Assembly: GCF_018882055.1 (NCBI RefSeq) | Contig: NZ_JACVPF010000002.1 | Coordinates: 124,001 to 188,000 of the forward strand | DNA: 64,000 nucleotides | Reading direction: 5' to 3' | Source of the DNA: Polynucleobacter sp. es-MAR-4 | GTDB lineage: Bacteria; Pseudomonadota; Gammaproteobacteria; Burkholderiales; Burkholderiaceae | Shown here: positions 5,811-23,978 of the stretch, piece by piece | Layout: every line of letters starts with the position of its first letter | Numbering within the stretch: the stretch's first letter is position 1 | The notes under the pieces: generated by a model | Database searches by the model: none | What the model was told of the DNA's origin: nothing | What the model saw: only the letters and a program-made list of their open reading frames with translations | Program-made: the position numbers and the translations under genes

Positions 5811-5835
5811 TGGCGGAGAGGGTGGGAGTCTAACC
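5811..5835. repeat. Left attachment site: copy of the tRNA-Ser 3' end
   Basis: This 25-bp stretch matches the 3' end of the tRNA-Ser gene at 23889-23913 in the same orientation. The first 12 bases are identical and 22 of 25 agree overall. It lies at the start of the unusual gene block, just outside the polysaccharide operon, so it is the displaced tRNA end left by integrase-mediated insertion. The three mismatches suggest an incoming tRNA end that already differed from the host's, or later drift. Confidence 0.75.
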
Positions 5836-6020
5836 TAACCTGCATAGCCCTGTTCATATGGTTTGACTAACGCATACTACCGTTTATGCTACCGAACCAT
5901 CAATCCCCACTGAGCTGGTAAATTGCTCCACTCTGCTACTTTACATTGTTCTTAGGCGAGTGTGGCAGCTAGCTTGCGTTCGCCTGTATTCCTGTAAGTA
6001 CTAGGTGTTGCGGGTGGGTG

Positions 6021-7404: not shown

Positions 7405-7773
7405 GTGAGGAAGCTACTACTCCTACTCGCCACCCTATTGACCGCCTGCGCCACCACTGAGAACTACGAGAAGATACTCAGTACGAACATTGGCAAGCCC
7501 GAAACAGCACTCGTAGCAGCATGGGGCATACCGACTTCAATGTACGAGAACGAAGGGATACGCTACCTAACTTATACGCAGACAGAGAGTGGGTATATCC
7601 CTGGAGTACCCCCCACTGTCTCAACCACCTACATTGGTGGCAAGGCTTACACTCGTAGCGTCGGGGGGTCTCAGGGAGTTGGGTATACCAACACCTGCTC
7701 TACTACATTCACAGTGGTGAATAAGATTGTCACAAGCTACAGTTACAAGGGTAACTCTTGTAAGTCGTATTAG
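7405..7773 (+). CDS. Small lipoprotein, cargo of the element
   Basis: It begins with GTG at 7405, with GGAG upstream. The 122-residue product has a type II signal sequence ending in the lipobox LTAC (Cys at about residue 15), so it should be anchored in the outer membrane. The body contains GKPETALVAAWGIPT, again like the helix and GxP turn of SmpA/OmlA domains, then a Thr/Tyr/Gly-rich segment and two late cysteines (NTC, NSC) that could form a disulfide. It is the only plus-strand gene of the element and is transcribed divergently from the BamE-like gene across an 87-bp region that must hold both promoters. Confidence 0.72.
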   Translation: MRKLLLLLATLLTACATTENYEKILSTNIGKPETALVAAWGIPTSMYENEGIRYLTYTQTESGYIPGVPPTVSTTYIGGKAYTRSVGGSQGVGYTNTCSTTFTVVNKIVTSYSYKGNSCKSY

Positions 7774-7825: not shown

Positions 7826-8224
7826 TCATCCGATTAATACCGAGAGAGGTATTTTGAGACGCTTTGAGAGCTTCCTAGCCGATGCCTTAGATAACTCGCG
7901 CTCACCACGGAGAAAGGCTGAAAGGTTAGGCTGGGCAATGCAATCTGCAAGGTCTACCTGTTTCAACCCTCTGTCCCGCATCAGATACTTAAGCGCGTCT
8001 GACTTTTTGTAACTGGGTAGAGGCTGGTGTGCCTCGTATTCCTCAATGCGGTTAGCCACGCAGTCTCTCCACCTCTTATTTTCTGGAGTACTCGGCAGGT
8101 CGTATATCTCCGCGAGTAGGTCTGAATACTCATATAGCTGACGCTTTGAGGTAATAGGAGCGAAGCCAAGATCCCTAGCGAGAGCTAGTGCTTTTTCACC
8201 TGACTTAATATTTAATGTACCCAT
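7826..8224 (-). CDS. HigA-like HTH regulator (COG5499 type)
   Basis: This 132-residue protein has an N-terminal helical part typical of COG5499 regulators (YEYSDLLAEIYDL) and a C-terminal Cro/C1-type helix-turn-helix: LKYLMRDRGLKQVDLADCIAQPNLSAFLRGERELS. This is the architecture of HigA-like antitoxins, but the preceding gene is not a recognisable HigB (RelE-fold) toxin. It sits 3 bp downstream of that gene, so the two are probably co-translated and may work as a pair. It could also act as an element repressor. Confidence 0.75.
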   Translation of the reverse strand: MGTLNIKSGEKALALARDLGFAPITSKRQLYEYSDLLAEIYDLPSTPENKRWRDCVANRIEEYEAHQPLPSYKKSDALKYLMRDRGLKQVDLADCIAQPNLSAFLRGERELSKASARKLSKRLKIPLSVLIG

Positions 8225-8227
8225 CTG

Positions 8228-8632
8228 TCATACTCCTTGTGTAAGCCGATTCTCACAATCGTATCCAAATACCTTGTCATTGACCGAACACATTGCCCTG
8301 AATACCTCTTCCTCATACTCAGGGTCAATGTGCTCATTCTCAGGCTCAATGAGCTGCCGTTCAATGATTACCCAATCACGGATTATGTAGAGACCGTTGT
8401 CGCCGTTGTCGCAATCTAGTGTGTCTATACTCCCGACACCTATAGACAAAGTTCCACCTAGAAAATTAGCGTAGCACTGTACTAGGCGAGCTAACCCGTA
8501 GTCATCTGCCCGAACCTTGTATCGCTTCATGCACCTTAGGGCTGCTAGAACGGAGGGTAAGCTGCCATTGTGATGAAGGTAGATTCCAGTGGCTCTGTCG
8601 TGGTCTTGAAGAATCACCCCCCTGTTACCCAT
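8228..8632 (-). CDS. Small acidic protein paired with the HigA-like regulator
   Basis: This 134-residue protein begins MGNRGVILQDHDRATGIYLHHNG. I have seen the pattern GNR(A/G)V...G(I/V)YLHxNG in small proteins of phages and plasmids of unknown function. The C-terminal half is rich in D and E with a conserved-looking IIRDWVIIERQ strand. It overlaps the helicase gene by 8 bp and is followed at once by the HigA-like regulator. A toxin role is possible from the order alone; nothing in the sequence shows catalytic residues. Confidence 0.65.
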   Translation of the reverse strand: MGNRGVILQDHDRATGIYLHHNGSLPSVLAALRCMKRYKVRADDYGLARLVQCYANFLGGTLSIGVGSIDTLDCDNGDNGLYIIRDWVIIERQLIEPENEHIDPEYEEEVFRAMCSVNDKVFGYDCENRLTQGV

Positions 8633-11024
8633 GACAATTCTCCTCTTTCCACTGACTGTAGAAACCCTTCTTCACAGCGATACTCTCGTAGTAGTCGAGC
8701 AGGTCTGGCTGTTGGTTCATTGGTAGCTTAGAGGCTACGGCTGGGATGCCCTCCTTCCGCTGGTTGGTAGTGTGACCAAGATAAGACTGAAGATTCATCA
8801 CTTGACTACAGCATGAGCAGGTGACCTTGGTGGATGACATAACCTTATTAGGGTCTGCTGCCCAGTACCAACCTGACACAGATTCGCATAGAGCAATCTG
8901 TTCTTGAGATAGTGTGCCTGCTTTGTACCCCTTGCGCTGTTCGTCAACCCACCGACCAGCATTCCAGCTATCGATTGATTCTTCTCTATCCAGCTGCCTA
9001 CCATTCTCTATAGCGAACTGGTTGATGAGGTTGCATCTGTCTGAGTAGCTGATGTGAGCATGGTTGTTAACCTTCGGCTTATTCAGATACTCAAGCATGT
9101 CGGGGATGGACTCTAGCGTATCCTTGATGTAACGAGGAAGCTTTCTATCTCCGCGGTAGTAAGCCTCACGGATACGATACTTCGCGTCGTCGAGTTGCGC
9201 TGCTAGTGTTCCGTTACCCCCATCACTAGTCAAAGGCAACCTACCATTCACCTCACGATACTTCGCTATCTCTAGCACCTGCGCCCACACATTGTGTAAC
9301 TCGGTAGCCTCGCTAGCGCGTTGAGCCACCTCTAATCCTGTGAGAGTCTCGGTGTGTACTACGGGGCGCGACTTGCTCTTCCATACTCGCTTACCTAAGC
9401 CCAACTTAGCGTAGGTGTCTTCCTTGCTCCGTGCTGAAGCCTCAACCGCGCCCCGTAGGTCGAATACCTTACCCGCTGCCATATTACCTACTAGGTCTAC
9501 TATCAACGGAGGGTGTGTAGCCTTACCTGAATCTAGGGCGCGACCCATCTGCTGTAGCGCAATAATATGGCTACTAGTCGGGCGGTACATAACCACGGTC
9601 GGTGCAGGGGTGTCGGTATGTAATCCCTCGTTGAACATACCTACGGAGATACACACTGTTACTCTGTTACGGTAGTTCTTAGCCTTGTTGATACGCTCTA
9701 CAGCTTCAGCAGGCGTCACCAAGCCAATATTAGTAGCGTCGTCAGCATAGCTATGCGTCCTCACCATGTTCAGGTTCTTGCCGATAGTACTGTTGGCTAG
9801 GTAATTGTGAATCTCATGCGCCTGAGCAATACTCTCTGTGAACAGGTGGCAGGTTGTACCCTTACGACCCTCCACTATTTTCTCCATAGCAGATAGCAAG
9901 TCTCCGTATGGGTTCTCTGAGTAGAACTCACGAGCCTCACGAATACGCTGCTGCTGCGCCTCAGGGAACGCAGTCTCATCTACCTCCGCTAGGTTCTCTG
10001 CTAGTGCAGGAGCAAGTTCCGATGCGCCGAGTATGTAAGTAGGCTCGGGTAGGATTCCAGAGGTAATAGCATCGGCTAGGTTCAAGCCACGGATGTGAAC
10101 ATCGTAGTTGTTCACCGCGCTACGGGAGTCCATGCGTACCTCCGTCGCGGTTGTACCGATTACTACAGCCTTGGGGTTAGTCTTACGCAGGGCTGCCACA
10201 CCCTCAGACCACCCAGTGGCGAGACTACGATGCGTCTCGTCTTCCACAATTACGGATAGGTTGGCGGGTAGTTCGCCCCTCTTATTCTTAGACGCTACAC
10301 CTGCGTAAGATATGTAGTTCAATCCAGTCGCAGTGGTATTGATAAGAGATTCATGCTGATCTAACACTACCTGCGTAGGCGCGAGTACAGCACCCACGAT
10401 TGTGTAATCCGAACCCTTGAGGTGCTCCACTAGAGCTGCTGTTACATACCGCTTACCCACACCTGTAGCCTGAGTGATTAACACGCTCTTGCCGTCCCTC
10501 AGATATGGGAGAGCCTGCATAACCACCGCCCTGTTATGTGGCTTGAGGTCGATTACTGAACGCTGTACGGCATCGTGTAGATTCAACATGGTCTGCAGTT
10601 GATCCCCATCTAGTAGGGTTATCTCCTGTCCTAGCGAAGTCCATACACCACGCTGACTTTCTACAGTCTTGTTGTAGCCGTTTAACGCTACTACGATTAG
10701 GCGGTCTGTATTGTGCTGCTTATGACCCTGCGCGTCTACCTTAGCTACGATGAGGTGTAGGTCGTCAGGGGTCAGGGGCGCGGAGTATGCCTTCACCTGT
10801 ATCGCAGTACGAGTGTTGGACGATACATGCTCAACCACAACATCCACACCCCCATCACCCGCTCCGTCTACATACATCGCAGACTCGTGCTGATTGCTGA
10901 ACAGTGCAGCCACTAGGTGTGCAAGTACAGCACCCTTCTCAGTAGCTGTAGGTTGCTCGGCAATAGTAGTACGGATATCACCTTTGGTATCTAGCAGGTG
11001 TTTAACAACAGGTAATGTGTTCAT
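8625..11024 (-). CDS. Restriction-nuclease-like / SF2 helicase fusion protein
   Basis: This is the largest protein of the element (799 residues). Residues about 25-110 form a PD-(D/E)XK (Mrr-like) domain with GDGGVDVVVE and IQVKAY supplying Asp, Glu and Lys. An SF2 helicase core follows: Walker A-like QATGVGKRYV at about 180, VIVEDETH (DExH) at about 260, GTTATE (motif III), and NEGLHTD ... QQMGRALD (motifs V and VI). After it come two helicase-associated repeats, the second with WNAGRWVDEQRKGYKAGTLS, and a C-terminal CxCC segment. It fits a DNA-targeting defence or restriction-type enzyme. Start and upstream stop overlap (TAATG). Confidence 0.85.
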   Translation of the reverse strand: MNTLPVVKHLLDTKGDIRTTIAEQPTATEKGAVLAHLVAALFSNQHESAMYVDGAGDGGVDVVVEHVSSNTRTAIQVKAYSAPLTPDDLHLIVAKVDAQGHKQHNTDRLIVVALNGYNKTVESQRGVWTSLGQEITLLDGDQLQTMLNLHDAVQRSVIDLKPHNRAVVMQALPYLRDGKSVLITQATGVGKRYVTAALVEHLKGSDYTIVGAVLAPTQVVLDQHESLINTTATGLNYISYAGVASKNKRGELPANLSVIVEDETHRSLATGWSEGVAALRKTNPKAVVIGTTATEVRMDSRSAVNNYDVHIRGLNLADAITSGILPEPTYILGASELAPALAENLAEVDETAFPEAQQQRIREAREFYSENPYGDLLSAMEKIVEGRKGTTCHLFTESIAQAHEIHNYLANSTIGKNLNMVRTHSYADDATNIGLVTPAEAVERINKAKNYRNRVTVCISVGMFNEGLHTDTPAPTVVMYRPTSSHIIALQQMGRALDSGKATHPPLIVDLVGNMAAGKVFDLRGAVEASARSKEDTYAKLGLGKRVWKSKSRPVVHTETLTGLEVAQRASEATELHNVWAQVLEIAKYREVNGRLPLTSDGGNGTLAAQLDDAKYRIREAYYRGDRKLPRYIKDTLESIPDMLEYLNKPKVNNHAHISYSDRCNLINQFAIENGRQLDREESIDSWNAGRWVDEQRKGYKAGTLSQEQIALCESVSGWYWAADPNKVMSSTKVTCSCCSQVMNLQSYLGHTTNQRKEGIPAVASKLPMNQQPDLLDYYESIAVKKGFYSQWKEENCHG

Positions 11025-12508: not shown

Positions 12509-12688
12509 CTATTGAATGGTGGCTGCATCCCAATCACTACGGGAACATAGGAACTGTTCACCCGCTGCATGTAATTTCACTGTCTGCTCGCCGATTTCAA
12601 CCGCGTTGATATACGGGAGCGGTATCAATACACTCTCGTGTAATGCGTTCACGGGATGACATTCAAGTACTTGAATTCGTTGTTGCAT
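12509..12688 (-). CDS. Hypothetical 59-residue protein
   Basis: ATG at 12688 overlaps the stop codon of the upstream HExxH gene (TAATG), which supports this start over a frame open to 12763. The short product alternates hydrophobic and polar residues (VLIPLPYINAVEIGEQTVKL) as a small beta-rich domain would. It probably functions with its coupled neighbour; nothing more can be said. Confidence 0.5.
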   Translation of the reverse strand: MQQRIQVLECHPVNALHESVLIPLPYINAVEIGEQTVKLHAAGEQFLCSRSDWDAATIQ

Positions 12689-13287
12689 TAGATTGCTTTC
12701 TCTATTAGGTCGGACAGTTGACGGGCTTGGCTGGTCGGTAGTACTTGCCCTGTAGATTGCCAAATCTCTGCATTGCCAACACGGATAGGGGGGACGATGC
12801 CCTGAAGTAGGTTCTGCGCGTCCTGCCTATTGAGTAGTAGATGGTTATCACCAGCAATGGACGCGGATGCCTTTAGTAGGAACTCCTCGTTCTCACAGAG
12901 AATCATGCCGATGAGATAGCCCATGTTTGCCGACTCCTGCAATTCCTCAAGGTCGTATCGCTTGAGAGCATTTAGGTCTTCAGCACTCGCGTGTCTGGAG
13001 CAGAGACCGTAGCGCACATCCTTCGGGATATCTTTACGCTCTACGAACGAGTTGAACACCTCTACGGGAGTCTGCTTCAGACGCATGATTTCAAAAACCT
13101 CACGGAAGAAGCCTGCACATAAAGCTGTTATTGCACTATGCGCACGCTGGTCGTCAGTCCACTCCGCGTAGGACTCGCAGGTGTAGAGACCACCTGTTTC
13201 TGTCTTACGGATAGAGCCATACTCATCTGTATTGAGTAGAGACCACACAGAGTGTCCGAGTTCGTGGCAAAGTAAAGACGGAATCAT
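12688..13287 (-). CDS. Small HExxH protein, possible M41-like metallopeptidase
   Basis: The first 15 residues contain CHELGHSVW, an HExxH zinc site with the Glu as general base. About 40 residues later comes ALCAGFFREVFEIM. Near residue 95 is SAEDLNAL, which could give the third acidic ligand as in FtsH (M41) peptidases (GAxxDL). There is no AAA domain and no membrane segment. It overlaps the coiled-coil gene upstream by 4 bp. A second HExxH protein is encoded at 19517-20155. Proteolysis of a repressor or phage protein is conceivable, but activity is inferred from motifs alone. Confidence 0.65.
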   Translation of the reverse strand: MIPSLLCHELGHSVWSLLNTDEYGSIRKTETGGLYTCESYAEWTDDQRAHSAITALCAGFFREVFEIMRLKQTPVEVFNSFVERKDIPKDVRYGLCSRHASAEDLNALKRYDLEELQESANMGYLIGMILCENEEFLLKASASIAGDNHLLLNRQDAQNLLQGIVPPIRVGNAEIWQSTGQVLPTSQARQLSDLIEKAI

Positions 13288-14771: not shown

Positions 14772-14954
14772 TTAGTGCGCCTTCGGTATACGGGATAGCA
14801 GCTCCGCTACGGTGTCTACTTCTAACTCTTGCATACCCATACGAATCTGCATTAGCGCTACGAGTTCGATGGACTGCTGCGGATGTACGCTGGTCTTCAG
14901 ATACGCGATGTAGTTGTCTACTTGTTCCGCATCCATATCTTCAATGCGAATCAT
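14772..14954 (-). CDS. Hypothetical 60-residue protein coupled to the terminase-like gene
   Basis: The start codon overlaps the stop of the upstream gene by 4 bp (ATGA). The product is acidic and helical, with DMDAEQVDNYIAYLKTS at the N-terminus. Its tight coupling to the small-terminase-like gene suggests a packaging or regulatory partner; no family is recognised. Confidence 0.55.
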   Translation of the reverse strand: MIRIEDMDAEQVDNYIAYLKTSVHPQQSIELVALMQIRMGMQELEVDTVAELLSRIPKAH

Positions 14955-15445
14955 GCTAGTAGTCCTTCATCGTCCGCGTTGTTCTTTAGCTCGCGTACAG
15001 AGTTCGCCTCTACATTCCGCATCTTCGCGTCTATTGAGGAAGCTTGGTGCTGTGTAGTGGATAACCCAAGAGTACGGGATAAAGCTTGAATCGAGCTATT
15101 GAGTTGTACGGTTGCATTCAGTAGTGCGGAGACGACTGTTGTACCGCGTTGGTTTATGGTGGTTAAGCCATCCTTAGCTAGGGCTGCAGTGGCTATATCG
15201 TTTTGAACCATTAACTTCGCGAGGTTCTCCATTAGTGAGATATCGAACCTGCGTATGGATATCGCTTCCCGTGCCTGAGCAATATTGCGGAAGTGGATTA
15301 GCTCCGCTGGGGATAGCTTTGTGTTCGGTTGCACCTCTAGACTCGCGTTAGCGTGGAGTGCTACCTGCCCTGCTGTTGTGTCACGCTTTGCAGGTCTTGT
15401 CGCTGTGGTTGCGGACTTTGTTGCTTTGGTCTTGCTAGTTGTCAT
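14951..15445 (-). CDS. Probable small terminase subunit (P27-like)
   Basis: AAGGAG lies upstream of the ATG at 15445. After a basic, Ala/Thr-rich N-terminus, residues about 45-140 follow the P27 small-terminase pattern. There is a helix with the acidic/aromatic SLMENLAKLMVQNDIATAAL, then KDGLTTINQRGTTVVSALLN. A long helix SSIQALSRTLGLSTTQHQAS follows, matching the family's hallmark in which a GL-turn, a short loop and a late L-(G/N)-L-(S/T) segment occur in order. Small terminases recognise phage DNA pac/cos sites; satellites use their own to divert helper packaging. Family assignment is by eye. Confidence 0.5.
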   Translation of the reverse strand: MTTSKTKATKSATTATRPAKRDTTAGQVALHANASLEVQPNTKLSPAELIHFRNIAQAREAISIRRFDISLMENLAKLMVQNDIATAALAKDGLTTINQRGTTVVSALLNATVQLNSSIQALSRTLGLSTTQHQASSIDAKMRNVEANSVRELKNNADDEGLLA

Positions 15446-16444: not shown

Positions 16445-16809
16445 GAGACTTTCTCCTTTGGATAGAACCCTTGACGCTTTGTGTCGGGGAACATCTCGTA
16501 TAGAGCATTGATAAAGACGAGCATCTCTGGGGTAATCCAAGTCCTAGCCGTTAGGTGAGTAATCCAGTTGTGCTCGCTTCTGTAGTGTGTGTACAGGTCT
16601 TTTAGGTCAAACCAGTAGCGCGACTTATTGAGACAAACCACTGCCCTACCATGCTCGAATGTGAGCTTTGCTACGGATGGGTCTGCACCTACACCCCAAA
16701 CCGCAAAGCACTTACCACCTTGATCATCGGCTACAGAACCACAATCTAGGATGTGTTGGTTGCTGAGGTAAAGACCAAACAATTCCTCCGCGGAATTAAT
16801 GTTCTTCAT
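16441..16809 (-). CDS. Hypothetical protein
   Basis: This 122-residue protein contains KCFAVWGVGADPSVAKLTFEH and RYWFDLKDLYTHY and is otherwise unrecognised. It overlaps both neighbours by 4 bp, so translation is coupled through three genes. Nothing suggests a membrane or exported protein. Confidence 0.55.
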   Translation of the reverse strand: MKNINSAEELFGLYLSNQHILDCGSVADDQGGKCFAVWGVGADPSVAKLTFEHGRAVVCLNKSRYWFDLKDLYTHYRSEHNWITHLTARTWITPEMLVFINALYEMFPDTKRQGFYPKEKVS

Positions 16810-17189
16810 TTAGGACTCCTAAATAGAATCGTTCCCGCTGGCGTACCAATCAATGCTTGTGTACGGGAGAGGTGCATATTCCACTCTCGCGTTACTACCG
16901 CATAGAACTGCTCAAGCGAGTGGATATAGTGCTGATTAACCCAGCCCTCTCCGTCGTGGAACACCTCATGTACAACTCTGTCCTTTAGCATCTCCGCGAA
17001 CTCACTCGGTGAGAGCGATGGGTCATACGGGTTATCGAGGTTATACCTACAGGTGAACCCGTATCGTGTATCCGCGTCTCTGTGTGCTTCAATCGCCTGA
17101 GCGAACTTACCAAGGTGGTAATCCCCATCTGCCCACACGGCATTGGTCAGTGGCTTCAACGCTGACAGTGGTATTGGTTGCTTCTTCAT
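16806..17189 (-). CDS. Hypothetical protein next to the iterons
   Basis: This is the first gene after the iteron region, 127 residues, with AGGAG upstream of the ATG. It contains a histidine/aspartate-rich centre (RVVHEVFHDGEGWVNQHY) that could bind metal, but no known motif is matched. Promoter signals for this operon should lie in the iteron gap upstream, so replication control may also affect it. Confidence 0.55.
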   Translation of the reverse strand: MKKQPIPLSALKPLTNAVWADGDYHLGKFAQAIEAHRDADTRYGFTCRYNLDNPYDPSLSPSEFAEMLKDRVVHEVFHDGEGWVNQHYIHSLEQFYAVVTREWNMHLSRTQALIGTPAGTILFRSPK

Positions 17190-17275
17190 TTCTACTTCTC
17201 CTGTTTACCGATATTTGGATTGCACTGACCCACACATCGGTGGATGTGGGAGTGCTTGAATTCGTTTTTGTTTGC

Positions 17276-17465
17276 CCAACCACTGGCAAACCACTGAGGT
17301 GTTTCCTTATGCTTCTTCAGTCACAAGTTGAGTGGTTTGATGGTCAGTGGTTTGCCTTAAGGAAAAACAACCACCAAACCACTGAAGTTGGTTGGTTGGT
17401 GTTTCCAGTTTTCAGCTCAGACCAAACCACTTCCCAACCACTTCCCAACCAGTGCAAACCACTGA
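17276..17465. repeat. Iteron array, candidate replication origin of the element
   Basis: The 11-bp unit CAAACCACTGA occurs exactly at 17287-17297, 17375-17385 and 17455-17465, and in reverse at 17344-17354. Degenerate copies lie at 17276-17286, 17329-17339 (reverse), 17423-17433, 17434-17444 and 17445-17454. Several copies are tandem with an 11-bp period, close to one helical turn. The array sits immediately downstream of the PrimPol-ATPase gene in a gap with no gene. Iterons beside a rep gene are typical of plasmid and satellite origins; function here is inferred. Confidence 0.7.
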
Positions 17466-17477
17466 ACCAGTTATTGC

Positions 17478-19520
17478 TCATAAACGGCTCTCTGGAGGGG
17501 TAAACCGAACGGAATTAGCCTCTTTTTGGTCATTTACTGCTAATTGATTACCCGCTTCATACGGGGCTAGTAGTAGCAACCCTGCTGCGCTGAGACCTGT
17601 AGCGGCATAAGACTTGTTGTTCTTAACCACCACCCCCTCTTCAGTGAGCAGCTCTTCCCTAATGCAATAAGAAAGACAGGTCGTTACGCGATTCTTAGCC
17701 ATACCTATCAGCCCGTGGTGATCCTTTAACTCGTTCTTGGTCATAGGTTGCTTACTGTTGTGTAGGTAACTCAGTACCGCCTTGACATCCCTGATTAGCA
17801 GTTCATCAGACGCATTCTTGACGGCTTGTGTTTTGGATTCATGCGTCGGTGCGGCAAGCTCTTCAAAAACCCAACCTTTACGCACTAGGTGTAGATCAGG
17901 AATATCTTCCCCATATGTATTCTTTGGGAAGCTGACATGAATACCCACCTCGTCAGGGAGTAGACCTCTTGAGGTCTTGTTAAGCCAGTCCTTATCTTCA
18001 ATGCCGTATCGATACCTCGCCATAACAGCAACCATACGAGCACCGTCTGCAAGAGACGCGCCCCCACGCAGTGAAAATTGGCTTACATTTTTCTCGCTAC
18101 CTGATGCTTTATTGACGTGGTGTATGTAGCGAACGCAGCAATCCACAGTTCGGAAAATCAGTCGCGCTGCCTCTACTAACCCTTGCTCAGCATCGTTCAC
18201 CCTGCTTTCACCAATACCGAAGGAAACCATTGGGTCAAAGATGATTAGGTCTACACCTTGACCCTTACACTCCCTAGCGATTACCTTGGCAAACTCTGTA
18301 GGTGCAACAAGTTCGCCTGTGACTTGGGTTAATCGTAGATTCTCAAGTGTGACATCGGAGACAAAGACCTTACTGGTTACCTTGAGGATTTCTTCATCAC
18401 TCAGTTGCATTGCTTCACATAACTTAAGAAGTCGCGCATAAATCTGCTCACGCGTATCTTCTTTGGTTACGAATAAGACCTTACCATCGGACATTACCTC
18501 GCGCCCCCAAATTGGACGACCCAATGCATAGTTAATCGCCTCAAGCATCGCGATTGTTGTCTTACCTGTACCACCTGTACCACCTAAAACTGAAAAGTCA
18601 GCCCATAGATACCCCGCAACCAATTCACGGGGTGTGGACTTCATGTTCCGTAATTCAGTGATGCTGGTTACAGGCTCAGGGAAAGTCCAATTAACACTCT
18701 CAACGACAGTCTTGCTACCCAACCACCCCGCCATTCGGTGCATCTTGATAGAGCACTCCTCAAGGCTCGGCAGACCCTTAACATTTTTACCCTCAGCATG
18801 ATTCTTGTAGGTGTCGTGAAGACTCTTAATACGGTCTGCGATGTCGTTCTGCCCCGATGCCTTGCAGATACCCGTGAATAATGCTTCCGCAATATTCAGT
18901 TCTACATTTGTATGGGCTAAGCCACCTGCTAGTGCAAGCATTCCGACATGGAACGCACCCTTTTGAACCTGCTGAGCAAAGTCCACACCTACTGCAATCA
19001 ACTTGCATCGGGCTAGTAGTTCTTCATGCTTGATAAAGGTCGGCTCGCCTTCCTTAAGCCATTGAACCTGACCAATATCGTCATCCTTACGCACTACAGA
19101 AGGCGGTAGGATTGTGTAGCTACCATCCCCGCGTAGTTCTAGCATCATTCCAGCATCGCCCACAAACTTTACTGTGCCCGCTTCCTCCTCGGTTCGGTAA
19201 TAGAAATGTGACGGCAACAGTTCACCACCGTATTCGCGCCCAGAGATTAGATTGGTTGGGGGTAGCACATACCCAGCGATAATCCGAGCCTCATTACAGT
19301 CGAGGTCGATGTCTTTTAGACCATCGCTTTCCTTACCCAACAACACACCAATATTCATGTTGTCTTTGAAGTCACTGGGGTCAGTAGTCTTCCACCAACC
19401 ACCATTGCGCGAGATAGGCTTCTTACCTGTCTCTTTTTTACCATCATCAGGCTTGCATGGCATCAGCGTCCATTTATTCTTGGTTATGTAGCGTTCGGCT
19501 ACTGCTTGTGTTTTACTCAT
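17478..19520 (-). CDS. PrimPol-RepA-like ATPase, element replication protein
   Basis: ATG at 19520 overlaps the upstream stop by 4 bp and precedes MSKTQAVAERYI; a frame to 19592 is less likely. The 680-residue protein has an N-terminal primase-polymerase domain. KDIDLDCNEA (DxD, about 66-75) is followed by SHFYY at about 105. A RecA-like RepA ATPase comes next, with GGTGGTGKTTIAM (Walker A, about 312-324), LIIFDPM (Walker B, about 423), YIHHVNK and SLRGGASLADGAR. It should prime and unwind DNA at the neighbouring iterons. This primase/helicase fusion is typical of satellites and small integrative elements. Confidence 0.85.
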   Translation of the reverse strand: MSKTQAVAERYITKNKWTLMPCKPDDGKKETGKKPISRNGGWWKTTDPSDFKDNMNIGVLLGKESDGLKDIDLDCNEARIIAGYVLPPTNLISGREYGGELLPSHFYYRTEEEAGTVKFVGDAGMMLELRGDGSYTILPPSVVRKDDDIGQVQWLKEGEPTFIKHEELLARCKLIAVGVDFAQQVQKGAFHVGMLALAGGLAHTNVELNIAEALFTGICKASGQNDIADRIKSLHDTYKNHAEGKNVKGLPSLEECSIKMHRMAGWLGSKTVVESVNWTFPEPVTSITELRNMKSTPRELVAGYLWADFSVLGGTGGTGKTTIAMLEAINYALGRPIWGREVMSDGKVLFVTKEDTREQIYARLLKLCEAMQLSDEEILKVTSKVFVSDVTLENLRLTQVTGELVAPTEFAKVIARECKGQGVDLIIFDPMVSFGIGESRVNDAEQGLVEAARLIFRTVDCCVRYIHHVNKASGSEKNVSQFSLRGGASLADGARMVAVMARYRYGIEDKDWLNKTSRGLLPDEVGIHVSFPKNTYGEDIPDLHLVRKGWVFEELAAPTHESKTQAVKNASDELLIRDVKAVLSYLHNSKQPMTKNELKDHHGLIGMAKNRVTTCLSYCIREELLTEEGVVVKNNKSYAATGLSAAGLLLLAPYEAGNQLAVNDQKEANSVRFTPPESRL

Positions 19521-20155
19521 ACCGCCTCCTCCTTGTGCAACCACTCCGGCAGAAGACTCACCATCGAAACCTGCTTCAAGTTCCGTGAGCAATAGCGTTC
19601 AAACTCACTACGCATCAGTCGCTTATTGAGCTTCAAAGTGCACGCGGTGGTATCGAACAAAACGGCATTCGTAGCGATTAGGTAGGTAGCAGCCCCGAGC
19701 ATCGCGCCCATTACTACTTCAGCGTCTACTCCTTGAGCCTTTGCAATTCCCGCACAAATTCGATTCACTACGATGCGTTCATCTAGCGATGAAGCAGGGT
19801 GTGCACTGTGCTTGAACATTTCCCCAGCCCAACCAGAGATTGTGTGAATCCCGATGAAGAATGCGCGGATAGGCTCTTCAAGCGAATTAATCTCGTCGCC
19901 AAATATTCCACTGGGCATAACCTCAGAGTACCCACCCCACATACCATGCTTATCACGCGCTAGGTAGCCTGCCTTAAAGTGGAAGCCCATTGCTGCAGCA
20001 CAAACAATATGCCCCGCCTCGTGCTCACTTGAATTGGTCAGTGAGGATGGCTCTACTCCGTGCTGAGCCACAATCGCTTCAGCCCATTGCATCTCATGCT
20101 GGGTTGGTCGGTTCAAGGCTTGAACTATTGACGGATTAGAAGGTGTCATTCTCAT
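19517..20155 (-). CDS. HExxH protein, possible M41-like metallopeptidase
   Basis: In 212 residues it carries SEHEAGHIVCAAAMGF (zinc-binding HExxH at about residue 42). About 75 residues on comes SGWAGEMFKHSAHPASSLDERI, where the AGE helix and the later SxxDE resemble the third-ligand region of FtsH-family M41 peptidases. No AAA domain or membrane segment is present. It overlaps both the upstream gene and the rep gene by 4 bp. Coupling to rep suggests a role in control of replication or induction; activity is inferred. Confidence 0.7.
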   Translation of the reverse strand: MRMTPSNPSIVQALNRPTQHEMQWAEAIVAQHGVEPSSLTNSSEHEAGHIVCAAAMGFHFKAGYLARDKHGMWGGYSEVMPSGIFGDEINSLEEPIRAFFIGIHTISGWAGEMFKHSAHPASSLDERIVVNRICAGIAKAQGVDAEVVMGAMLGAATYLIATNAVLFDTTACTLKLNKRLMRSEFERYCSRNLKQVSMVSLLPEWLHKEEAV

Positions 20156-21662: not shown

Positions 21663-21902
21663 TTATTGATTACGCCATCCAGCGACGGCTCTACGGATAT
21701 CACCTGCGTAAAAGATGGCAAGGGATGTACCAGTACACTTGATCGGTCTAGGTAGTAGCGACTTGTTGATGTAGCGGTGCACGCTCCGTGTACTCTTACC
21801 GATGTAGAGCGCGACCTCGTCTATAGAGATAGGCGCGTCATCTGAGAGTTCATTCAGAACCTTAGGGTCGCGTACTGTGCTACTTTGTCGTTGATGTGTC
21901 AT
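21663..21902 (-). CDS. AlpA-family regulator / excisionase-like protein
   Basis: This 79-residue protein has the short winged HTH of AlpA/MerR-like excisionases: ISIDEVALYIGKSTRSVHRYINKSLLPRPIKCTG, followed by FYAGDIRRAVAGW. AlpA proteins activate or assist the integrase of P4-like elements and are standard in phage-inducible islands, where they drive the operon and help excision. It sits between the unknown gene 21154-21585 and the integrase operon. Confidence 0.8.
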   Translation of the reverse strand: MTHQRQSSTVRDPKVLNELSDDAPISIDEVALYIGKSTRSVHRYINKSLLPRPIKCTGTSLAIFYAGDIRRAVAGWRNQ

Positions 21903-22005: not shown

Positions 22006-22584
22006 TCAGAGGTAGTACTTTTCAAGGTTAGATTCTGTTCCAGCATCTATCCCGTGTTCCTTTTTGAGCCTGCTGATTGCGCGCTTACGGTAGCCGTGAA
22101 CCTGCCTATCCTTCTCGAAAGCAGCAATCGAACGGGCAAGGTCTATATGCTCTTGAGGAATCTTGGACTTACGGCTACCACCACGCGCCAGTTTGTCCTT
22201 GGCATCTGATAAATCGAGTACTGCATCGAGCAGCTTAGGGTCTTGAGTAGTTGCGGTAACGACCTTCACAGTTCCGAACGGGGTGGCATCAACAGAGACC
22301 TCAACTCCGTGCAAAGTTTCCTTCTTGGGCTCTGGATGCAGCGACTGTGCCAGCTTGAATTTCTCTGACTCCGTTAGCCTCGCGCCCTTCTCCTTCTCAG
22401 CCTGTTCTAGTGCAATCTTCAGTCTTGCGGAACTGGCTCTCATTAGCTCGATGTCTGCCTTCAAGACTTTGCGCTGCTTAGCCTTATTCTTACCTGAGGA
22501 CAGAACCCTATCTCCTGAATCCGACTTCGATACTAGGTGTTCCAGTAGCCTCTCATCGAATGGCTTTGATTTATCTATAGCCAT
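22006..22584 (-). CDS. Hypothetical protein coupled to the integrase
   Basis: Its ATG overlaps the integrase stop (TAATG). The 192-residue protein is basic and mostly helical (SSARLKIALEQAEKEKGARL, KLAQSLHPEPK), with a beta segment GVEVSVDATPFGTVKVV. I recognise no domain. Co-translation with the integrase suggests a recombination or regulatory accessory. Confidence 0.6.
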   Translation of the reverse strand: MAIDKSKPFDERLLEHLVSKSDSGDRVLSSGKNKAKQRKVLKADIELMRASSARLKIALEQAEKEKGARLTESEKFKLAQSLHPEPKKETLHGVEVSVDATPFGTVKVVTATTQDPKLLDAVLDLSDAKDKLARGGSRKSKIPQEHIDLARSIAAFEKDRQVHGYRKRAISRLKKEHGIDAGTESNLEKYYL

Positions 22585-23726
22585 TACTTAGCTCCCCTCA
22601 GGTATTCAGCCCACGCAGTCATCATCGGCTTACGCTCAGCTAGGAAGTCTGAACGGAGATACGCGGTTACAGTCTTTGTACCTAGAGAGTGCGCTAGTTG
22701 TGACTCTGCCACCTCAAAGCTATAACCCGCACTTGCACTCCAATCCCTGAAGCAACTACGCATACCGTGAACAGTTACATCCTCACCACCCTTTACTCTG
22801 TGCAGAGACTTACTGATGGCGACATCAGATAACGCGCCACCCTCGGAGTTCGGGAATACGATGTCGGTCTCTAGGTGCTTGTTTAGAACCTTTTGATCTT
22901 TCAATAGCTCGAGTGTTTCACCGCTCAACGGGCAGCGCCATTCGTTGCGAGCCTTCATTAGGTCGGCTGGCACTGTCCATAGCTTCTTCTTCATATCGAG
23001 CTGCGACCATGTAAGCTGTCGCGCATTGTTACTACGGCAGGCGGTGAGAATAATGAATCGCAGTGCGTTGTAGCTAGTGATGAGACGCTTGCTAGTTATG
23101 CCTTTGTATAGGGCTGGCGCAGCCTTCACCGCCAATGCGGCATGATGCTCCTTGCTACGCTTAATCCCGAGGTTCGGGGACAGGTGGTTCACCACTTTGA
23201 CAGATGCTGGATTTGCTATCACCTGATTTTGGTAATACACAGCGAAGCCTGCATCGAGGATGTTTTCTATCCGAGACCTCACCCTACGCGCTGTCTCTAG
23301 CTTACTGCCGATATTCTTCAAGATGCTCAGCACATCACTCGGGGTTACCTCATGTGGCTGCTTGTGCCCGATTGTTGGGTACGCGTACTCGGTGAGAGTG
23401 TTGCGCCACTGTTGAGCATGCTTGGGGTTAGACCAATACTTTGATTCCTCACGAGCGGATATGTAGTCTTCCGCTATCTTCTTGAATGTGGGCGCACTGC
23501 TGGACTCCGTCTTCACCTTACCGACCAGTGCACGGGCTTCAGCTAGGCGCATACCGTTAGGACTGGCATCGCCAATAACCTTCCATACCCGCTTACTGTC
23601 CACAGTAATGCGGGACACCCAGCTACGAGTGCCTGTTGAGCTAACCCACAGGTACAAGCCCTGCCCGCAGGCGGTGTGACCACACTTGGTTATGGTGTTA
23701 CATTGTTGGACATTCAGGACTTTCAT
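22584..23726 (-). CDS. int: Tyrosine-recombinase integrase
   Basis: This 380-residue integrase has an N-terminal arm-binding-type domain with a SAM-like core (about 75-165) and a C-terminal catalytic domain. The catalytic residues are visible: Arg in TACRSNNARQLTWSQL, His-x-x-Arg in VHGMRSCFRDW, and the nucleophile Tyr in TKTVTAYLRSD. It lies 163 bp from the tRNA-Ser 3' end, as expected for an enzyme that recombines there. It would integrate and excise the 18 kb element. Confidence 0.93.
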   Translation of the reverse strand: MKVLNVQQCNTITKCGHTACGQGLYLWVSSTGTRSWVSRITVDSKRVWKVIGDASPNGMRLAEARALVGKVKTESSSAPTFKKIAEDYISAREESKYWSNPKHAQQWRNTLTEYAYPTIGHKQPHEVTPSDVLSILKNIGSKLETARRVRSRIENILDAGFAVYYQNQVIANPASVKVVNHLSPNLGIKRSKEHHAALAVKAAPALYKGITSKRLITSYNALRFIILTACRSNNARQLTWSQLDMKKKLWTVPADLMKARNEWRCPLSGETLELLKDQKVLNKHLETDIVFPNSEGGALSDVAISKSLHRVKGGEDVTVHGMRSCFRDWSASAGYSFEVAESQLAHSLGTKTVTAYLRSDFLAERKPMMTAWAEYLRGAK

Positions 23727-23727
23727 A

Positions 23728-23818
23728 AGTGGTAGTATGCCTGACTTTTGAGGGGGTCATGCTACCACTCGTACTACCATTCCTTATGTCAGTGGTAGGG
23801 TGTGGATGTCAGTGGTTG
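23728..23818. repeat. Repeats between int and tRNA-Ser, candidate integrase/AlpA arm sites
   Basis: AGTGGTAG occurs at 23728-23735 and 23791-23798 and in reverse (CTACCACT) at 23762-23769. ATGTCAGTGGT is repeated directly at 23786-23796 and 23806-23816, 20 bp apart, about two helical turns. Such repeats near an attachment site are typical arm-type binding sites for a tyrosine integrase or its excisionase. The gap also holds the int promoter region. Confidence 0.55.

Positions 23819-23888: not shown

Positions 23889-23978
<90 letters not shown>

Follow-up and report, generated by a model that had tools for sequence, protein, structure and literature searches.

A probable iteron origin of replication 3′ of rep in a PICI-like integrated element of Polynucleobacter

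A cluster of 11-bp repeats lies directly 3′ of a primase-helicase gene, here termed rep, in Polynucleobacter sp. es-MAR-4, within the 64,000-nucleotide stretch of DNA that we analysed (the window). Our conclusion, reached from sequence and held with considerable confidence, is that this array is the replication origin of an integrated, PICI-like element of about 18 kb. We favour this reading because the array is non-random, because its position directly 3′ of rep and its iteron blocks match published PICI origins, and because unlike arrays recur at the same place in many distant relatives. The last two results also support the initial annotation, which had proposed the gap beside rep as an origin. 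Iteron origins 3′ of rep are already known in other phage satellites, and the present array would be a further case.

The repeat array and the rep gene

Searching the window for CAAACCACTGA returned four exact copies, at 17287 (+), 17344 (−), 17375 (+) and 17455 (+), and five degenerate ones, at 17276 (two mismatches), 17329 (−; one), 17423 (two), 17434 (three) and 17445 (three), in agreement with the four exact (one inverted) and five degenerate copies first annotated at 17276-17465. Two weaker half-copies, at 17367 and 17463 with four mismatches each, lie in or adjoin the array. The features of this region are:

17276..17465, no strand assigned: iteron array, nine 11-bp copies, 190 bp, consensus TCAGTGGTTTG on the rep strand
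17423..17465, minus: iteron block A, four head-to-tail copies (17455, 17445, 17434, 17423), spacing 10, 11, 11
17329..17385, no strand assigned: iteron block B, copy 17375 facing two inverted copies (17344, 17329)
17355..17374, no strand assigned: spacer between facing iterons, TTTTTCCTTAAGG on the rep strand, a candidate melting site
17276..17297, minus: iteron block C, two tandem copies (17287, 17276), spacing 11
16806..17189, minus: 127-aa ORF on the far side of the gap from rep, without family match (Pfam, PHROGs)
17478..19592, minus: Rep, with Prim-Pol, AAA_25 (RSF1010 RepA-type helicase) and a C-terminal winged-helix-like region
19517..20155, minus: 212-aa ORF with a HEAGH motif, overlapping the start of rep, without Pfam family

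Along the direction of rep the blocks follow in the order A, B, C, block A being closest to the rep stop, and the tandem 11-bp spacing described earlier is found in blocks A and C. The array lies just 3′ of rep in a gap of 288 bp (17190-17477) between the rep stop and the start codon that follows; for the minus-strand ORF 16806-17189 this gap is the 5′ region. As had been claimed, this is the only non-coding gap adjoining rep, given that at its 5′ end the rep ORF overlaps ORF 19517-20155. Nor does coding appear to explain the repeats: a plus-strand ORF of 145 aa (17066-17503) had no family match in a PHROGs scan, the one scan applied to it. The spacer at 17355-17374 has the highest A+T content of the array (up to 0.64 per 25 bp), a value also attained outside the array at 17197-17221. 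The gap folds better than its shuffles (z −2.66, with 1 of 200 shuffles as good), as the inverted iterons would cause it to do. A simple consensus scan of 17100-17560 found no sigma-70-like promoter and no terminator. Between the array and the 127-aa ORF lies an imperfect palindrome, CCCACATC/GATGTGTGGG (17229-17250), a possible operator.

Chance does not account for the array. AACCACT occurs eight times in the gap, while 2000 dinucleotide shuffles of the gap gave a mean of 0.155 copies and a maximum of 2. When every 7-mer was counted on both strands, with no motif preset, and compared with dinucleotide shuffles of the 64 kb, the densest 7-mer cluster of the whole window was the array itself (8 copies in 200 bp, against at most 4 in 20 window shuffles). 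The same cluster stood out with 9-mers (6 copies, shuffle maximum 3) and 11-mers (4 copies, shuffle maximum 2). The structure noted at the outset is therefore non-random, shuffled sequence having no comparable local density. Over the whole window, 30 motif matches with up to two mismatches were found against 19.4 expected, and 30 was reached in 2 of 100 shuffles; given that this enrichment is only mild, the signal is one of local concentration. The motif enrichment that had been suggested as a check is strong for the local cluster, but only mild for the window-wide count. In the 1.93-Mb genome, four of the eight exact copies fall within the array.

The rep ORF is intact, with an in-frame ATG at 19520 as an alternative start, and its product matches Prim-Pol (E=2.7e-10) and AAA_25 (E=1.3e-24) in Pfam. 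A profile built from Rep and eleven viral-contig relatives matched RSF1010 RepA (1g8y, E=4.3e-35) in the PDB, as well as the AEP primases 7rr3 and 6a9w (E about 3e-7), the second of which we take to be the structure of NrS-1 PrimPol. The AlphaFold model of Rep (mean pLDDT 59 overall) is good for the helicase only, and its best structural matches by Foldseek were DnaB and RepA (1olo, 1nlf, 1g8y). The last 125 residues are modelled as helices followed by two strands (mean pLDDT 65); Foldseek returned many MarR-type and other winged-helix regulators for them, all weaker than E≤0.001, and the model suggests that the C-terminus may be a winged helix.

HExxH motifs occur in two ORFs of the element, 19517-20155 (HEAGH, directly upstream of rep) and 12688-13287 (HELGH), and an ORF with HEMSH adjoins a Rep relative (L029:3015-3584); the HExxH ORF is possibly a metallopeptidase partner of Rep. 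The same genome encodes a second, distant RepA-type helicase (G000:C2:962829-963425; L004, L032) of 28% identity; the 400 bp to either side of its ORF contain no array.

The integrated element

The array sits in an integrated element of about 18.1 kb, with likely ends and a PICI-like layout, at the 3′ end of tRNA-Ser(CGA). Its further features are:

22584..23726, minus: tyrosine integrase (Pfam and PHROGs)
21663..21902, minus: AlpA/excisionase-like HTH protein, 79 aa (PHROG 66, E=2.2e-4; HTH_24, E=5.9e-5; HTH_17, E=0.0044)
14951..15445, minus: terminase small subunit-like (TerS-like) gene (PHROG 5601, E=1.8e-9; Terminase_4, E=3.3e-4, below cut-off)
8625..11024, minus: Mrr_cat and ResIII/helicase restriction-like cargo
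5811..5835, plus: distal att repeat, 25 bp, 22/25 identical to the tRNA-Ser 3′ end
23889..23913, plus: proximal att repeat, the 3′ end of tRNA-Ser(CGA) (tRNA gene 23889-23978, minus)

Homology to three loci of the same genus (G008, G035, G002) ends at 23889, which fixes the tRNA-side end of the element; these loci match on the tRNA side, with no match to window positions 1-23888, and no empty site was found among them. The far end is placed by the att repeat and a change in G+C from 0.43 to 0.49. On the minus strand the order is integrase, AlpA/excisionase-like HTH gene, rep, array and TerS-like gene, the last 1.8 kb from the array. PHROG 66 is annotated as 'excisionase and transcriptional regulator', and the 79-aa HTH protein has no Pfam AlpA match. 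An HTH_3 gene (7826-8224) accompanies the Mrr_cat and ResIII/helicase gene, and the two are likely defence cargo. Near both ends of the element lie TACTACC/GCTACC motifs, at 5875 and 5888 and at 23731, 23761 and 23772. TACTACC has one copy within 150 bp of the far end, two close to the tRNA end and seven elsewhere in the element, and GCTACC one at each end and 21 elsewhere; as integrase arm sites these motifs are candidates and only a lead. Beside the tRNA end there are also two copies of ACCACTGA, at 23789 and 23809, with the same core as the iterons.

We found no close relative of this element. With Rep alone as query, none appeared in the collections of genome contigs or viral contigs, and a search of 101 relatives and 398 family genomes returned, besides its own copy, distant RepA-type matches. 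Among 186 genomes of the genus, and apart from its own copy, the best-scoring relatives of the integrase had at most 39% identity, with a few short fragments up to 45%. The gap, too, had no close relative at the DNA level.

According to excerpts of PMC6092414, the iterons of PICI origins lie immediately 3′ of the initiator gene, in two sets on either side of an AT-rich region, and a plasmid could be maintained by one such rep-ori segment; the gene order is int, regulator, rep, ori and sometimes terS, and the Gram-negative members have AlpA and genes in one orientation. The present element resembles PICIs such as SaPI and EcCICFT073, as those excerpts describe them, in its putative iteron origin 3′ of the initiator and in its gene order, here judged from anatomy. 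It also has an integrase at one end with an att site, and no convincing capsid, tail or lysis genes: across the 26 element ORFs scanned with PHROGs, structural or lysis matches other than the TerS-like gene had E≥0.002 (for a few short ORFs the scan was with Pfam alone, which covered 30 element ORFs in total). Of the 26 ORFs taken as genes, 25 are on the minus strand and one (7405-7773) is on the plus strand. It differs from PICIs in that Rep is an AEP Prim-Pol joined to an RSF1010 RepA-type helicase, in that it has no known helper phage, and in that it has three iteron blocks, with a spacer that is modestly A+T-rich.

Arrays at the 3′ end of rep in relatives

Were Rep to read the array as an origin, its relatives would be expected to have arrays too, likewise positioned but different in sequence. 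At least three of the first four relatives (L028-L031) had an apparent 3′ array, which prompted a systematic test. Repeated 7-mer pairs were scored automatically against dinucleotide shuffles in the 400 bp on each side of the rep ORF, at 61 viral-contig loci, L028-L031 and the window; 57 loci had both flanks. Arrays with z>5 lay 3′ of rep at 30 of these 57 loci and on the 5′ side at none. After dereplication into Rep groups at 50% identity, with G585 added, an array within 400 bp was present 3′ of rep in 15/30 groups and 5′ in 1/29, against 3/166 (3′) and 9/164 (5′) for control genes on the same contigs (Fisher p=9e-12 for rep 3′, dereplicated groups, against control 3′). With the window and the four prompting loci removed, 12 of 25 groups had a 3′ array.

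A second collection, of bacterial genome contigs, gave arrays at 16/43 loci 3′ and 0/43 loci 5′, with 27/43 below the z>5 threshold. It is important to note that this collection partly overlaps the first: L030 and L031 recur as two of its loci, and four of its ten groups (38 of 44 loci) are linked at ≥50% to the first set. Among the six groups unlinked to the first set, three had a 3′ array and none a 5′ array.

Arrays inside the end of the rep ORF are missed by such a comparison of flanks. L171, the closest full-length relative (31%), has a 3′ score of zero; its array consists of GGCGCAAT copies within the final 206 bp of the rep ORF (L171:4757-4934), and a terminase large-subunit gene lies further on past it. 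To catch such arrays, we scored 250-bp bins in a profile from −1000 to +750. The profile, which was not dereplicated, took in 71 loci, namely the 30 group representatives and 41 of the 44 second-collection loci (L193 and L197, which are L030 and L031 again, and the fragment L203 were left out); L180 then fell out, its ORF running off the contig, leaving 70. From −1000 to −1, z>4 was reached in 1/69, 1/70, 3/70 and, in the last bin at the end of rep, 17/70 loci, several of these last hits being weak (z 4-6) and from one distant group (L200-L213). From the stop outward to +750, the counts were 35/70 (the first 250 bp after rep), 9/68, 2/67 and 5/67. The arrays therefore cluster around the 3′ end of rep, on both sides of its stop, and in 51 of the 70 loci at least one of the two 250-bp bins that adjoin the stop had z>4.

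The association has its limits. In 15 of the 30 dereplicated groups the 400 bp that follow rep lack an array, and some of these groups have repeats within the terminal part of the rep ORF (L069, L070, L073), as L171 of the second set does. No bin reached z>4 in G585 (a 33% relative from the same order), L029, L099, L115, L118, L120 or L124, or in L195, L196, L199, L207 and L214 of the second set. In a wider set made up mostly of weak matches from the same genus, family and order, 3′ arrays at z>5 were found at 5/45 usable loci (L006, L010, L131, L149, L152) and 5′ arrays at 1/56 (L026). That set comprised 58 loci, 11 of them without a usable 3′ flank. Its ORFs were picked automatically; the rows for L001 and L126, the window's own Rep in a wrong 51-aa frame, were discarded, and other ORFs may be wrong. 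Some of its loci are repeats (L002, L005 and L006 are L029-L031; L127 is L156; L015 and L136 are one place).

Pfam scans of ten relatives found the helicase domain constant and the primase part variable. Prim-Pol was present in L072, L074 and L082, Toprim in L068 (and below cut-off in L076 and L028) and PriCT_2 alone in L065 and L031, while neither primase type was found in L071 and L119; all ten have a 3′ array. Iteron sequences vary among relatives, the tandem copies often being 9-12 bp apart (20 loci). That the sequence varies and the position stays is as expected of a co-evolving Rep and its iterons. Given that the primase is swapped while the helicase stays and a 3′ array is present throughout, we infer from these comparisons that the helicase and its C-terminal region, rather than the primase, would be the iteron reader. 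A TGCGCC core or a one-base variant of it (CGCGCC in L097) occurs in the arrays 3′ of rep in L065, L071, L072, L076, L083 and L097, and is perhaps an ancestral iteron.

We also considered whether iterons in general are primase-start sites. Excerpts of PMC8718748 report that NrS-1 PrimPol starts primers at GTGG and TTTGGTTA, and the iteron core here, AGTGGTT, contains GTGG. We rejected this as a general meaning, since the consensus iterons of L028, L066, L068, L072, L074, L076 and L082 contain no GTG, and three of these (L072, L074, L082) are Prim-Pol relatives.

Mechanism, alternatives and known systems

As an origin, the array suggests the following course of events. The element would be excised by its integrase, and Rep would bind the 11-bp iterons, its C-terminal winged-helix-like domain probably making the contact. 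The RepA-type helicase domain would form rings, and Rep would open the A+T-richer stretch between the facing iterons, a stretch whose modest A+T richness counts against this reading. The PrimPol domain of Rep would lay the first primers, and the remaining synthesis would be carried out by a host or helper-phage polymerase. The role given to each Rep domain in this scheme is one that we infer. GC skew, which we had considered as further support for an origin, shows a composition shift at about 17 kb that is not in the sense of a bidirectional origin; it was set aside because gene strand and recent acquisition also confound it.

Repeats of this kind might instead form an operator, at which Rep or another protein of the element controls the downstream genes, from the 127-aa ORF to terS, and does not initiate replication. 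Iterons often autoregulate, and the gap doubles as the 5′ region of ORF 16806-17189. We nevertheless think an operator unlikely, given that the consensus scan found no promoter or terminator and that the arrays of relatives hold their place relative to the rep stop, the array of L171 even lying inside the end of the rep ORF. The same gathering of arrays at the rep stop speaks against a packaging site for the element's own TerS-like protein, a highly improbable role that the nearby TerS-like gene would nonetheless favour; the arrangement is moreover found in the plasmid pRS11DPr4, with no terminase among 32 of its 35 features in a gene table that is incomplete.

The two ACCACTGA copies beside the tRNA end could be taken to mean that the repeats are integrase or excisionase arm sites. 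We give this very little credence, since the array is 6.4 kb from that end and a different motif, TACTACC/GCTACC, lies near both ends, though also elsewhere in the element. That the array is a relic, or an unrelated repeat with no present function, would sit well with the failure to find a close relative of Rep or of the integrase, yet seems scarcely credible to us given an intact Rep ORF and an association seen repeatedly among many distant relatives. We retain the reading of the array as an origin.

Among known systems, the helicase of phage P4 alpha is of the SF3 type. P4 alpha is, according to excerpts of PMC4234260, likewise a primase-helicase initiator whose winged helix binds ori repeats, but its primase is of the Toprim type. 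The same excerpts describe pRN1, a PrimPol replicon, as having an essential origin region, a stem-loop, just 3′ of rep. Its ORF904 resembles Rep as a multidomain AEP primase-helicase-winged helix initiator with the origin 3′ of its gene, and differs, as far as that source describes it, in its SF3 helicase and a stem-loop origin without iterons, where the present protein is of the AAA_25/RepA type. The RepA-RepB′-RepC system of RSF1010/IncQ shares the helicase family (1g8y) and an iteron origin (PMC4234260, excerpts), but has three polypeptides where there is one here, whose primase matches the Pfam Prim-Pol family; no match named RepC appeared among the 30 element ORFs scanned with Pfam. The PLE of Vibrio cholerae is also a phage satellite with its own initiator and a repeat origin in a non-coding region, but its initiator, according to excerpts of PMC7145576, is a RepA_N protein in which neither a primase nor a helicase is predicted.

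Plasmid pRS11DPr4 of Methylomagnum ishizawai (NZ_AP019787.1) carries a Rep relative (35%, residues 313-623) with an iteron-like array behind it. It differs from our element in being extrachromosomal, in having recombinases and a transposase among those 32 features, and in having a weak Toprim match alone in front of the helicase. Behind its rep (L028:16110-17254), AACCTCGCGG/CCGCGAGGTT copies are at first scattered and further on closely tandem, the repeats extending into a gene annotated as hypothetical.

A broader proposal, which we put forward tentatively and as rather less than probable, is that RSF1010-RepA-type helicases with a C-terminal DNA-binding domain may make up one replicon class across satellites, phages and plasmids, in which the primase (Prim-Pol, Toprim or PriCT-type) is swapped and the iteron origin keeps its place where the initiator gene ends, in some cases extending into the coding sequence. 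Here, each iteron could then be both a binding and a priming site. In the literature that we searched, with subscription journals largely outside it, we recognised no paper stating that RepA-type (AAA_25) initiators have iteron arrays 3′ of their genes as a rule, and we make no claim of priority.

The present results provide a mapped, testable candidate origin for a phage-satellite-like element. They also offer a simple rule for the origins of uncharacterised elements, namely to check the 3′ end of the RepA-type helicase gene, and we consider this rule for RepA-type initiators to be of more interest than the single array described here. If Rep and its iterons co-vary, the family would be well suited to the study of origin binding, unwinding and priming in one protein.
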